From NCBI GenBank assembly GCA_003448685.1, contig DLXW01000106.1:6746-25190 (forward strand): a stretch of 18,445 bases of DNA, written 5' to 3'. This stretch comes from Cyanothece sp. UBA12306 (GTDB taxonomy: Bacteria; Cyanobacteriota; Cyanobacteriia; Cyanobacteriales; Microcystaceae). Below, one piece after another: positions 2,301 through 10,743 of this stretch (positions within the stretch are counted from its first letter, which is position 1; every line of letters starts with the position of its first letter). The position numbers and the translations under genes were made by a program. Under the pieces are notes generated by a model, which was not told the DNA's origin, ran no database searches, and was given only the letters and a program-made list of their open reading frames with translations.

Positions 2301-2912
2301 CTAGCGAACTAGGTTTAAGAGTTCTTTAGGAGATGCTAGTAAATCTATAGCTACAAAGAAAACTTTGTTTTCAGGGTTGAGCAAGAAGCGCCAGGCTATA
2401 TTCATGCCCACATTGCCCCCAAACCAAGGGGTTTGCACTTTGCCAGTCACTTTGATCTGAGTATAGCCCTCATCTGCCGATTCCTCAACTCCCTTTTCTG
2501 GGATTAACTTGAGGTTTTGGCATTCTTCCCTAAAAAACTGTAGCACCTTATCCTTACCCACAATCGGTTTTTGGAAGGGAGGTTGCAAAGCCCCATCAGC
2601 AGCAAACAGGGCGATAAGCTTGTCAAAATCGTTGGCATTCAAGTTGTTCATGTAGTCCAGAACGGTGGGGTTGCTAACGCCTTCAATCTTGACTTGAGTG
2701 CGTTGGGACATATCTTTGGGAGGAACTACTGGTTCTGCTACGCGTGAGTAGCTACCTAATTTGCTGGTATTGAAGCCCATATCCACTACAGCATTGCGTA
2801 AGACAGTAATTTGCTGGCCCGGATCAAGTCCCTGAATCGTTTGCAACACTGCTGAAGCATTGGCAGAAAGCTTGTATCCTTCGGGAATGGGAGCCACACT
2901 TCCCTCGTCCAT
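2301..2912 (-). pseudogene. ocp: Orange carotenoid protein, 5'-truncated (C-terminal domain plus linker only)
   Basis: OCP binds a keto-carotenoid across two domains; blue-green light separates them and the N-terminal domain quenches phycobilisomes. The frame here encodes 203 residues, against about 317 in full-length OCP. It opens at MDEGSVAPIPEG, which aligns near residue 117 of Synechocystis OCP, so most of the helical N-terminal domain is absent. An in-frame TGA sits three codons before this ATG, and no other frame of the 54 bases up to the Uma2 gene resembles the missing part. What remains is well preserved: R39 (R155 equivalent), the interdomain linker, and a CTD with Y87 and W174 (Y201 and W288, carotenoid keto-group contacts) and E130 (E244). 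It is either a recent pseudogene or a C-terminal-domain-only protein. Independent CTD homologues exist in cyanobacteria, but they do not usually keep NTD residues as this one does. Confidence 0.88.
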
Positions 2913-2941
2913 CCACTTTGATCATGTCCCGAGCAATAGTA

Positions 2942-2958
2942 GCTTAATATTATTAAGC
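2942..2958. repeat. Perfect inverted repeat GCTTAAT-ATT-ATTAAGC
   Basis: A 7-base perfect stem with a 3-base loop sits between the end of the Uma2 gene and the start of the truncated ocp, directly beside a second inverted repeat. It marks the region where the front of ocp has been lost. It could be a hairpin in RNA or a scar of rearrangement. Confidence 0.6.
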
Positions 2959-2981
2959 CCTCCAAATTATACAATTGGAGG
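2959..2981 (-). terminator. Possible hairpin at the end of the Uma2 gene
   Basis: CCTCCAA (2959-2965) and TTGGAGG (2975-2981) form a perfect 7-base stem around a 9-base loop. The structure overlaps the Uma2 stop codon at 2967-2969. On the minus strand the stem is followed by GCTTAATAATATT rather than a clean T run, so termination efficiency is uncertain. If it works, it would limit read-through from ccs1 and the Uma2 gene into the ocp remnant. Confidence 0.4.
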
Positions 2982-3572
2982 TAAAATCGACGTTAGACTG
3001 AGCATCAAACGAGGGAGTGCTAGGGGTGTCACCTGATGGGGTTCATTAAGAATTAAATGGCTAGTATAACCTGTAGGAGTGGGATCACGGAAAATGTGAA
3101 GTTGGCGGTTTTTAACATCTAATACCCAATAATCAGCAATATTTGCTTGAGCATAAAGTTTTTCTTTGATTTCGCAGTCTTGTTTGAGAGTTGAATCTGC
3201 AACTTCTACTACAAGATAAACTTCATCGGGACGAGGATGATGGTCAGCGTAATCTAAAATGGTTCCTTTGGCAATAATTAGATCGGGTTCGGGTTCGGAA
3301 AAATTATCAAGTCGAATGGGATCTTGGGTACTCACAAAAACAGACTGATCCGCAAGTAGTCTATCGAATTGAGTCGCTAATAAGCGTAAAGCAGTCACAT
3401 GAGGTATTCCTTTAGCAGTCATCAGGATAATTTGTCCGTCAATTAGTTCAGTCCTTTCATCGGGATCAAGAATACCTAATTCACTCATCTGATGATATTC
3501 TTGAACTGTCCAACGTTTAAGAGAAACTGTTTCTAGAGGTACAGTTTGGAGTGGGATATTTAAAGAAGTCAT
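2967..3572 (-). CDS. Uma2-family restriction endonuclease-like protein (DUF820)
   Basis: This 201-residue protein has the layout of the Uma2/DUF820 family, a PD-(D/E)XK nuclease fold found in many copies in cyanobacterial genomes; biological roles are mostly unknown. Visible motifs are DERTELIDGQI with E42, EPEPDLII with D97, YLVVEVADST with E123, and the distal helix D132-x3-K136 leading to YAQANIADYWVLDV. These are the usual positions of the active-site acidic and lysine residues, so the enzyme looks intact. Its ATG lies only two bases after the ccs1 stop codon, so it is probably co-transcribed with ccs1. It ends 54 bases before the truncated ocp. Copies of this family vary in location between strains, so a recent arrival here is plausible but not shown. 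Confidence 0.9.
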   Translation of the reverse strand: MTSLNIPLQTVPLETVSLKRWTVQEYHQMSELGILDPDERTELIDGQIILMTAKGIPHVTALRLLATQFDRLLADQSVFVSTQDPIRLDNFSEPEPDLIIAKGTILDYADHHPRPDEVYLVVEVADSTLKQDCEIKEKLYAQANIADYWVLDVKNRQLHIFRDPTPTGYTSHLILNEPHQVTPLALPRLMLSLTSILPPIV

Positions 3573-3574
3573 AG

Positions 3575-4942
3575 TTATTTTTCTGTTTTATTGTTAGCTG
3601 TTTCCAAGTTATCTAAAATGGCTAATAATTCCCGTTCAAAAGTGACTTGTGCGCGATTAGTTTTCCCACCAAGATAACAGCGATCGCCTTCTTGTAATAC
3701 CCAAATTTGGGAATGGGAAACATAACTCATAATCACCCCAAGCATCAATAAACCAAACCCAGTATAAACAAAAGGAATGCCAGGATCAGCTTTGATTTGT
3801 AATCCCGTACTGCCAATTAATTCATGTATTTTCAGGGTAACACCATCAATATCAATTGCCATTCCTGGACGAATAGCAGTAAAAAGATCGCCATTTTTGT
3901 CGTAAACCATCATGGTTCCCTGTAAGTCTCGAGTTAATAGAGATACCCCTTCACTCAAATCTGGTTTAATAGGAATCCAAGTTCCCCAAAGATTTCCTTC
4001 TCCATCACCTTTTAAGGGAGCAACAGGAATTTGAAAAATAGGACTATTATTAACTTGAGCCTTAACCGCAGCAATTCCCCAACTAGTTTGATAAAAAGTA
4101 ACTCCTTCATGGCGTAAAGGTTGATTGACAAAAATTGTTTTACGATCTAACTCTTCTCCTTGATTATTAATTACAGAAAGATCGGAATAAAACTGATCAA
4201 TATCACCATTAGGGGTATAATCAATCCAAAATCTATTAACCCTAATTCCCCAATCCTTGGGAATTAAGGAACTCGAAAAAGGTCCAGCTTCAATAATATT
4301 TTTGACTTGAAAACTTGTACCGCTAGGAATCATTTCTTGTGCCAAGAATCCTGTTAATGCTCCCCCAATTGCTCCCCCGAGAATTATCAACATAGCAGCA
4401 TGAACAATAATAGGTCCAATTCGTCCAATAATTCCTTTACGAGCATAGATAGATTGATTATCTTGGAATACTTTATAACCCTTATTTTCTAATAAAGGAA
4501 TCACACTAGAGACAGATTTGTTGCTAACTTGTCCGCTTAAAGCAAGTTTTTCAAACTGTCTGGGTTTCTGATAAAAACGCCAACTACGGGCAGCTTTTAG
4601 AGCAGGAAATTGACGGTTAAAAGTACAAGCAGTGAGACTGGTTCCTAATAAAATTAATAAAGATAAAAACCACCAAGTAGTATAAACATGATTTAAGCCT
4701 AAAATCAAAATAACTTGCCAGGTTAAAAAGCCAAATAATGCTGGTTGTTCAGGATAATTTTCTTGATAAAAAGCTAAACTCTCTCCTTGTTCAATAACAG
4801 TTCCACTAATACTAAATAAGGCAATAACTAATAAAAGAATAATGGCCAAACGCAAATCAGCTATGGTTTTAAGAATTTGCTGCCATGCTTGTTTAATTAA
4901 TGAGCCAAAATCGTTGTTTTGGGAAGCATCAGAAATGGTCAT
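3575..4942 (-). CDS. ccs1: Cytochrome c biogenesis protein Ccs1 (ResB family)
   Basis: Ccs1 (CcsB/ResB) pairs with CcsA in System II cytochrome c maturation, bringing haem across the thylakoid or plasma membrane and keeping apocytochrome cysteines reduced for haem ligation. The 455-residue length matches cyanobacterial members. Membrane segments appear at about 31-50, 70-85 and 89-106, then 175-198, and a last one at 392-409 after a large lumenal domain. H181 (IIVHAAML) and H410 ([10 protein letters not shown]), flanking the third-loop and final segments, are candidate conserved haem-associated histidines. The lumenal stretch contains [18 protein letters not shown], characteristic of ResB. 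The ATG at 4940-4942 gives the expected polar N-terminus before the first membrane segment. A HIP1 site lies at 3680-3687. The gene is divergent from psbK with 250 bases between them, room for two promoters. Confidence 0.95.
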
Positions 4943-5432: not shown

Positions 5433-6134
5433 ATGATTAATCTGCGTCGTTCTCAAGAAAGAGGCCTTGTTGATTTTGGTTGGCTAGATAGTAGACACAC
5501 TTTTTCTTTTGGTCATTACTACGATCCCAATTTTATGGGATTTTCTAGCTTAAGAGTGATTAATGAAGATAAAGTTATCCCAGGTAAGGGTTTTGCTACC
5601 CACGGACATCATGAGATGGAAATCATTACCTATATTATTGATGGTGCCTTAGAACATCAAGATAGCTCAGGAAATAGGTCAATTATCCGTCCTGGAGATG
5701 TGCAAAGGATGTCAGCAGGGACAGGTATCAAACATAGTGAATATAATGCTTCTGAGAGTGCTCCAGTTCATTTACTACAAATTTGGATTTTACCCGATAC
5801 TCCAGGGTTAGAACCAAGTTATGAAGAAAAGCATTTTTCAACTCAAGATAAACAGGGAAAATTAAAGTTAATTGGTTCAAAAAATGGTCGAGATGGTTCA
5901 GTTACTATTCACCAAGATGTTGATTTGTATAGCTCTATTTTAAGTAATGGAGAAACAGTTAAACATTCTTTAAATAACGAGAGAAAAGCTTGGATACAAG
6001 TAGTTCAAGGTTCAGTTCAATTAGAAAATTATCAACTTTATATAGGAGATGGAGTAGCTATTTCTGATGAACCAAGTCTCTCTTTAACAGGAATTTCTGA
6101 TAAGTCTGAAATTTTGTTATTGGATTTAAGATAG
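5433..6134 (+). CDS. Pirin family protein (YhhW-like bicupin)
   Basis: This 233-residue protein is a bacterial pirin of the short, YhhW-like type, a bicupin metalloprotein. E. coli YhhW shows quercetin 2,3-dioxygenase activity in vitro, but the physiological role in cyanobacteria is unclear. The N-terminal cupin has HTFSFGHYYDP (22-32) and the metal-binding set H57 and H59 (in GFATHGHHEMEIITY), H101 and E103 (in GTGIKHSEYN), matching YhhW ligand spacing. RPGDVQRMSAGTGIKHSE is a family signature. The C-terminal cupin (about 140-233) lacks metal ligands, as usual. The ATG at 5433 gives MINLRRSQERG, the standard start. The gene is monocistronic between the psbK terminator and an IS-like remnant that begins within about 20 bases of the stop codon. 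Confidence 0.94.
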   Translation: MINLRRSQERGLVDFGWLDSRHTFSFGHYYDPNFMGFSSLRVINEDKVIPGKGFATHGHHEMEIITYIIDGALEHQDSSGNRSIIRPGDVQRMSAGTGIKHSEYNASESAPVHLLQIWILPDTPGLEPSYEEKHFSTQDKQGKLKLIGSKNGRDGSVTIHQDVDLYSSILSNGETVKHSLNNERKAWIQVVQGSVQLENYQLYIGDGVAISDEPSLSLTGISDKSEILLLDLR

Positions 6135-6151
6135 TGATAGTAATAATTTTT

Positions 6152-6249
6152 GGAGTAAGACTCGCTGGTACTTGTATTAGAAAGCATCACTCGTTGAATC
6201 AGGAATCTCCCGCTACATTGCCTGATTCTATTAGCGGTGAGAGTGTCAA
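6152..6249 (+). mobile_element. Remnant of an IS200/IS605-family right end
   Basis: The stretch ends in GGTGAGAGTGTCAA (6236-6249), very close to the reverse complement of a second end at 13733-13746 (13 of 14 bases). Such ends follow tnpB (orfB) genes of IS200/IS605 elements in cyanobacteria. One frame reads RLAGTCIRKHHSLNQESPA, which looks like the decayed C-terminal tail of such a transposase-associated protein; no other part of the gene remains. Two interleaved inverted repeats are present: GAATCAGG (6196-6203) with CCTGATTC (6221-6228), and CCGCTA (6210-6215) with TAGCGG (6232-6237), typical of structured single-strand ends. Assignment is by pattern and memory of the family, not by a database match. 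Confidence 0.5.
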
Positions 6250-6280
6250 ATATGCCTTACAATATCGTATTTTAAAAAGT

Positions 6281-6610
6281 CTACAAAATTATACACAAAG
6301 GTGATATTTCTGGTCTTTGTTCATAACTACACTTGAGCATAACTGTTTTTCCTTGTCTATTTTTAGCTTTGCATAAAACTGCTCCATCCCCATCATTATC
6401 TTCTGCTTCACATCGCCAAGCTTCTAATTTATTTCCGTGAGCAAATGCTCTGAGGTTTCGTTCAGCTGGTTTTCTAATCTGGCGACTTTCAGGGTTTTCT
6501 AAGAGATTGTGTAAGGCAATAATGATCACAATGATCACAATCAATAGACCAATAATCAAATCCACCATAGAAAAGTTTTTCTCTTGTTTACTTTGATAAT
6601 TTAAAGGCAT
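6281..6610 (-). CDS. Small membrane-anchored hypothetical protein with four cysteines
   Basis: I do not recognise a family. The 109-residue protein has a polar N-terminus, one strongly hydrophobic segment at about 16-34 rich in isoleucine and valine, and a soluble C-terminal part with four cysteines (C67, C80, C94, C106) spaced 13, 13 and 11 residues. The even spacing suggests two disulfides in the periplasm or lumen. EAEDNDGDGAVLCKAKNRQG has an acidic turn that might bind a cation, but this is inference. The start at 6608-6610 is ATG; a second ATG at residue 15 (6566-6568) would place the hydrophobic segment at the very N-terminus like a signal anchor, and is a fair alternative. The base composition is like that of its neighbours. 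Confidence 0.6.
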   Translation of the reverse strand: MPLNYQSKQEKNFSMVDLIIGLLIVIIVIIIALHNLLENPESRQIRKPAERNLRAFAHGNKLEAWRCEAEDNDGDGAVLCKAKNRQGKTVMLKCSYEQRPEISPLCIIL

Positions 6611-10274: not shown

Positions 10275-10341
10275 TATTTAATGGAGATAAGATAATGTGA
10301 ACTGTGTTATGATTCTAGAATGATATTCAATAAAATTGCTG

Positions 10342-10743
10342 ATGGAACCATTAACAACATCTGCGATCGCTCTTGCTTCTGTTATCGCTACCAAAGCATT
10401 AGAAAAAACTGGACAAAATCTAGGGGATACTATTTGGGAACAGACAAAACATTTTGTTAGCATTCTTAGGGAACAATCTCCTGATACTGTCGCTATAATC
10501 GAAGAAGCACCTGAACAGCCTTTAGACTATAATAAAATGGTCTTAGAGAGTGATCATCAAGATATTGCTATCAGTTTAGATAATTTAGCTAATCTTTACT
10601 CTTTTCAAGGACGTTATGAAGCAGCAGAACCTTTATATCTAGAAGCATTAGCTATGAAACAACGAATCTGGATAAGTGATCATCAAGATATTGCTACCAG
10701 TTTAGATAATCTAGCTAATCTCTATATACTTGAAAACTATTAA
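10342..10743 (+). pseudogene. Truncated TPR (kinesin light chain-like) protein stub
   Basis: The frame encodes 133 residues from the ATG at 10342; an earlier in-frame TTG at 10336 is less likely. The N-terminal part (MEPLTTSAIALASVIATKAL) resembles a helical leader found at the front of large cyanobacterial multidomain repeat proteins. It passes without a frameshift into a 42-residue TPR unit, SDHQDIAISLDNLANLYSFQ and GRYEAAEPLYLEALAMKQR, then a second unit that stops after NLYILENY. The two units are also near-identical at DNA level with a 126-base period (10549 and 10675). Family members usually have many units, so this looks like a protein shortened by repeat contraction and an internal deletion. 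TPR proteins act as protein-binding scaffolds. A short functional product cannot be ruled out. A HIP1 site lies at 10363-10370. Confidence 0.6.

Follow-up and report, generated by a model that had tools for sequence, protein, structure and literature searches.

The window analyzed here (18,445 nucleotides of Cyanothece sp. UBA12306, corresponding to C272:6746-25190) contains an uninterrupted reading frame for only the later part of an OCP, which raises the question of whether the frame persists as the remnant of a broken gene or as a shorter protein in its own right. We favor the first answer: with a probability of roughly 70%, the frame is what is left of a recently broken, probably borrowed ocp1 gene lying beside an orphaned frp.

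The ocp1 fragment and its neighborhood

The locus is composed of the following features, in which percentages refer to identity with genome G006:

327-1709, (+): mnmE, 84% to G006, in which ccs1 is distant from it
1716-1748, no strand: 7-base tandem repeat AATTTAG x4.7, precisely in the gap from mnmE to the frp end, on the far side of the foreign-looking piece from the junction
1748-2068, (-): frp, intact fluorescence recovery protein gene, 106 aa, GTG start; PF18032, E 3.3e-39, profile positions 1-99 of 99
2301-2912, (-): ocp1 3' fragment, OCP residues 117-319 (203 aa), comprising the end of the NTD, the linker and a complete NTF2-type CTD
2967-3572, (-): Uma2-family gene, directly upstream of the fragment, with low GC3 like its neighbors
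3575-4942, (-): ccs1 (ResB), 86% to G006

The original prediction had the frame opening at OCP residue 117 and running for 203 residues, and alignment to OCP 5ui2 bears this out: residue 1 of the fragment corresponds to residue 117, and the match extends without gaps over residues 117-317 (383.9 bits). Also as predicted, the frame, which starts with ATG, contains no internal stop or frameshift and keeps the equivalents of R155, Y201, E244 and W288 (Synechocystis numbering, with an assumed offset). The C-terminal NTF2 domain characteristic of an OCP1, with Y201 and W288, is present and is matched by its profile; of the helical N-terminal domain, which is complete in an OCP1 (Carot_N 1-151), the fragment covers profile positions 104-150 of 151 only. 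The helical domain holds the carotenoid, and without most of it no OCP function is possible; because most of that domain is missing, the fragment would be unable to work as an OCP. The frame lies away from the contig ends (C272:9049-9657), and an essential part of the ancestral gene is gone together with its start, as in a pseudogene. One feature counts against its being a remnant: M117 coincides exactly with the start of the frame, which would be convenient for a shorter protein.

The next gene downstream, on the same strand, is frp, which the original prediction had not named. FRP is a regulator acting on OCP, and the gene found here matches PF18032 over its full length (133.7 bits, against a cut-off of 26.6). 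On its other sides the piece is bordered by genes whose arrangement differs between genomes. The distance between mnmE and ccs1 is 1.9 kb in the window; in G006, which by identity of mnmE and ccs1 is the nearest genome, a long distance separates the two, and in the congener G002 they lie on different contigs. The Uma2 gene has a best G006 match of 62%, which does not adjoin ccs1 there. A weak consensus scan of positions 2913-3650 on the strand of the fragment found no promoter-like site. Elsewhere in the window, the end of a short ORF at 10336-10743 reads by eye like tetratricopeptide repeats with an early stop; the ORF is possibly the opening part of a broken TPR gene.

The junction upstream of the fragment

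The DNA between the Uma2 gene and the fragment can be divided as follows:

2913-2966, (-): junction, from the Uma2 stop to the fragment ATG
2916-2939, (-): 24-base block occupying the position of OCP codons 108-115 (G F W Y x L G x) but dissimilar to them in sequence, with a TGA inside
2922-2924, (-): in-frame TGA, codon -4 from the ATG
2940-2951, (-): N-I-K-L, in the reading frame and register of OCP 104-107; probably a leftover of the missing half

The in-frame stop that had been placed three codons ahead of the ATG is indeed there, as the TGA at 2922-2924, with three sense codons between it and the start. The codon immediately 5' of the ATG encodes W, as it does in 41 of 54 relatives. Further upstream, NIKL stands at exactly the spacing of OCP residues 104-107. 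In an in-register codon test, devised after the NIKL match had been noticed, four consecutive in-register majority residues appeared in 10 of 50,000 dinucleotide shuffles, and 6 of 129,981 54-mers (from five loci of the source genome and G006) held an equally long in-register run. Counting matches without requiring a run gave a weaker result, which 508 of 50,000 shuffles reach. An anchored DNA alignment of the junction lent no support to a remnant (shuffled sequences did as well in 234 of 400 gapped and 11,297 of 20,000 ungapped trials), partly because its profile is out of register in at least 14 of 46 rows. ATIAR, which matches OCP 23-27 out of frame (4 of 1,500 shuffles), is a rival that overlaps NIKL, so that at most one of the two can be right; a simple deletion combining both is ruled out by their order.

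A trace of the missing NTD half therefore probably stands in the junction, in the form of the 12-base match encoding NIKL. The original statement that these 54 bases hold no such trace has become doubtful, although the anchored alignment gave NIKL no support and the ATIAR match competes with it. The NIKL reading moves the break from residue 117 to about residue 104. Provided that NIKL is real, the 24-base block is best seen as a separate rearrangement, because point change of about 2% would hardly scramble 24 bases; the TGA within that block looks like a second lesion and resembles breakage.

It is unlikely that the junction is an artefact of assembly or binning and that an intact ocp1 is really present at this site. 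The genome is a draft known from one assembly (370 contigs, 87.7% complete), and the unclear origin of the 24-base block fits such an error; but the junction lies inside a 25-kb contig, its DNA (searched for repeats) has only a single match in the genome, the flanking mnmE and ccs1 match the nearest genome, and no Carot_N piece fitting the missing half was found in the assembly. The one other Carot_N match in the assembly belongs to an HCP on contig C343. This HCP (165 aa) and then a CTDH (132 aa) are encoded 182 bases apart at L115:641-1719, with the CTDH at L115:641-1039; the gene beside the pair looks by eye like radC. An arrangement of HCP then CTDH is described for Anabaena HCP4-CTDH in PMC6123778. 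The genome search proposed earlier for an intact ocp or an HCP was thus answered in two ways: no intact OCP was found in this 87.7% complete assembly of 370 contigs, and an HCP was found, paired with a CTDH.

Origin of the ocp-frp pair and age of the break

The fragment and frp stand apart from their surroundings in composition, with GC3 values of 0.48 and 0.49, respectively, versus 0.16-0.34 in the 14 other window ORFs measured; the GC3 of the G002 ocp is 0.33. Besides the window's own entries, the best OCP match in the database is P0002 (88%), and the best FRP matches are P0122 (87%) and P0124 (84%). P0002 and P0124 are both listed with a 2,286-base contig, and similarity to that pair exceeds similarity to the congener G002, which has a full ocp (81%) and frp (59%) at another location.

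Kinship was examined in phylogenetic trees, whose rows are partly the best matches of the window. In a tree of OCP only, the window groups with P0002, Spirulina and Arthrospira, but the support of 93/85 stays under the star threshold. In the FRP tree it falls within a starred 33-row group from which all 12 rows representing genomes of its own family are absent, but which includes P0167, named a Microcystaceae MAG protein; for FRP alone, sisterhood with G002 is not rejected (p-AU 0.124). The joint OCP and FRP tree (48 rows) places it in a starred seven-row group (97/94) with P0002, P0015, Spirulina, Arthrospira, Geitlerinema and Baaleninema, and sisterhood with G002 is rejected there only marginally (p-AU 0.0325). 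A clade uniting all family rows with the window was strongly rejected, a result that carries no information on the window, as the rows of the family are themselves scattered. Against a foreign origin stand the unstarred OCP placement, the FRP result for G002, the position of P0167 and the choice of tree rows. Overall, the kinship of the pair points to other cyanobacterial families, and we infer from these sequence comparisons that ocp and frp were transferred horizontally into a rearranged site.

A full-length ocp at the same locus in close relatives, which the original prediction had suggested looking for, did not appear in the genomes searched. The matches in G006 are HCP- and CTDH-like, and neither ocp nor frp was found there; the G002 pair is located elsewhere; and G001 and G003-G005 (single contigs of 2.5-3.1 Mb) gave no match to either query. 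Since the relatives searched lack ocp at this locus, the gene is probably an acquired one, broken either before or after its arrival, and not an ancestral ocp that was lost at this site.

The fragment shows no decay. Among 101 columns at least 97% conserved across 153 relatives, it departs at one (D164N), which is one of 24 in the NTD stub; none of 71 columns in the CTD and none of six in the linker is changed, and 60 of the 153 relatives have as many or more departures. Under an unconstrained model that counts substitutions only, the probability of seeing so little change without any stop falls to 0.046 at 2% substitutions per site and to 0.012 at 3%, implying that the break, if the frame is unconstrained, would date to less than about 2% substitutions per site. 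NG86 comparisons of the window with seven relatives, for the NTD stub and the CTD, gave a dS that was undefined in 5 of 14 cases and above 1.5 in 8 of 14; where defined, dN/dS for the CTD was 0.005-0.078, and most of that divergence presumably predates the break. Judged by its sequence, the fragment is either young or constrained, and one sequence cannot separate recency from purifying selection. The earlier suggestion that the loss is very recent is the half of that alternative that we favor, given a single changed column, while constraint would look identical.

A recently broken, borrowed gene could have arisen as follows. An ocp1-frp pair would have entered the cyanobacterium by horizontal transfer and come to sit at a rearranged site between mnmE and uma2-ccs1. 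When ocp1 became joined to the uma2 flank, its promoter and first third (residues 1-103 or, on the rival reading, residues 1-22 and 28-115) would have gone missing, whether the pair was complete at first and then suffered a deletion or the 3' part alone was integrated. On the NIKL reading, a second small change would have replaced codons 108-115 and placed the TGA ahead of M117. The remainder would be a 5'-truncated remnant whose frame is still intact, decay having had too little time to show, and frp would be without its partner. Any translation would depend on read-through from ccs1-uma2 and on the ATG at codon 117, and would yield a free CTD like the one made in the laboratory, called COCP. 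Such a free CTD may in principle be able to bind FRP and carotenoid; there is no sign of selection for it. The anatomy, the foreign composition and kinship, the undecayed frame and the failure to find a second OCP in the assembly are observations, whereas transfer, recency and loss of function are inferences.

Free CTDs and comparison with known systems

Shortened ocp genes were sought in other genomes. Matches at E <= 1e-55 occurred in 257 of 388 genomes of the class (the source genome included), and an open frame of fewer than 300 codons was seen in three of the 150 matches listed: the fragment, L151 (G332) and L152 (G278, at a contig end). Among these matches the short form is thus unusual. 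The G332 gene (L151:4824-5783) is a full ocp interrupted by one TAG, at codon 116 immediately ahead of ATG117, and frp follows downstream (5971-6285); the TAG could be a nonsense mutation or a sequencing error. No second case in which the NTD DNA is gone was identified among the matches listed. A database search for shorter proteins returned 373 matches; among the best 120 of 373, many are on contigs of 1-2 kb, and the recurring lengths of short entries (159, 182, 203, 237, 246, 259 and 273) fit internal starts at contig ends, while some short OCP entries (such as P0251, P0294 and P0274, again among the best 120 of 373) are on long contigs. The database assigns the short OCP P0001 to a 25,021-base contig and the frp product P0121 to one of 25,190 bases, the length of the window's own contig; these are possibly two assembly records of the same locus. 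Among the titles and abstract openings listed in searches of the open-licence literature, none concerned a natural OCP1 reduced to its CTD.

These surveys bear on a decidedly unlikely reading, in which a CTD-plus-linker protein is being maintained that binds ketocarotenoid, is modulated by the neighboring FRP and passes pigment to the resident HCP. Its chemistry is sound: the earlier remark that CTD homologues can carry carotenoid agrees with the isolated Synechocystis CTD, which, according to PMC6123778, dimerizes, binds carotenoid and hands it on. The unchanged CTD columns, the intact FRP next door and the 165-aa HCP in the genome all suit such a protein, as does an AlphaFold2 model with a mean pLDDT of at least 80 in 11 of 13 ten-residue blocks over fragment residues 71-200. 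The NTD stub, by comparison, is mostly below 50 pLDDT (a full-length control is poor there too, with block means of 32-64, so that the low values do not set the fragment apart), and its roughly 48 residues have lost their partner helices. The HCP, moreover, already has a CTDH beside it. According to PMC6123778, all CTDHs lack four residues after Synechocystis residue 278, and insertion of these residues into a CTDH hindered carotenoid uptake; in our alignment this stretch is present in the fragment and gapped in the genome's own CTDH. The failure of the weak scan to find a promoter-like site and the lack of a second NTD-less case among the matches listed also weigh against maintenance. With the second lesion at the junction added to the resident CTDH, the four retained residues and the promoter result, the original suggestion of a new CTD carrier born by deletion is left unsupported.

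The published direction of evolution, as given in PMC10172135, is that HCP-like and CTDH-like ancestors fused into OCP and that FRP was acquired by transfer. An OCP1 sensor domain and FRP, delivered by the transfer or left by breakage in a cell with HCP and CTDH, with the free CTD kept as an FRP-controlled carotenoid carrier for HCP, would amount to a reversal of the OCP fusion in nature, for which we see only a slim chance. A useful reversal of that kind would be new, if true; should the protein be made, nature would offer its own counterpart of the laboratory CTD and, with it, a test of whether undoing the OCP fusion can be useful. Read as a remnant, the locus offers a modest example, apparently a recent one, of the acquisition and breakage of a photoprotection operon in a cell otherwise equipped with HCP and CTDH.

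Like a CTDH, the fragment has an NTF2-type domain without a working NTD, and does so in a cyanobacterium; unlike one, it is not a stand-alone domain free of NTD and linker, since it retains about 48 NTD residues, the linker and the four-residue insert, and its identity of 88% to an OCP1 versus 38% to the genome's own CTDH leaves practically no chance that it is an old, ordinary CTDH gene. It is nearly the same piece of protein as the laboratory isolated OCP CTD in PMC6123778, from which it differs in about 50 extra NTD residues and in being known here from its gene alone. It shares with the G332 ocp a frame that reopens at ATG117 and an frp downstream, but there all of the NTD DNA is present and interrupted by the single TAG, whereas here that DNA is gone. 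Compared with an OCP1 (PF09150 plus PF02136), the fragment is without the first 116 residues and their start, and has a TGA in the junction; its residues 117-319 are unbroken, with 79-88% identity to the other matches listed, and the locus has the same arrangement of ocp followed by frp.
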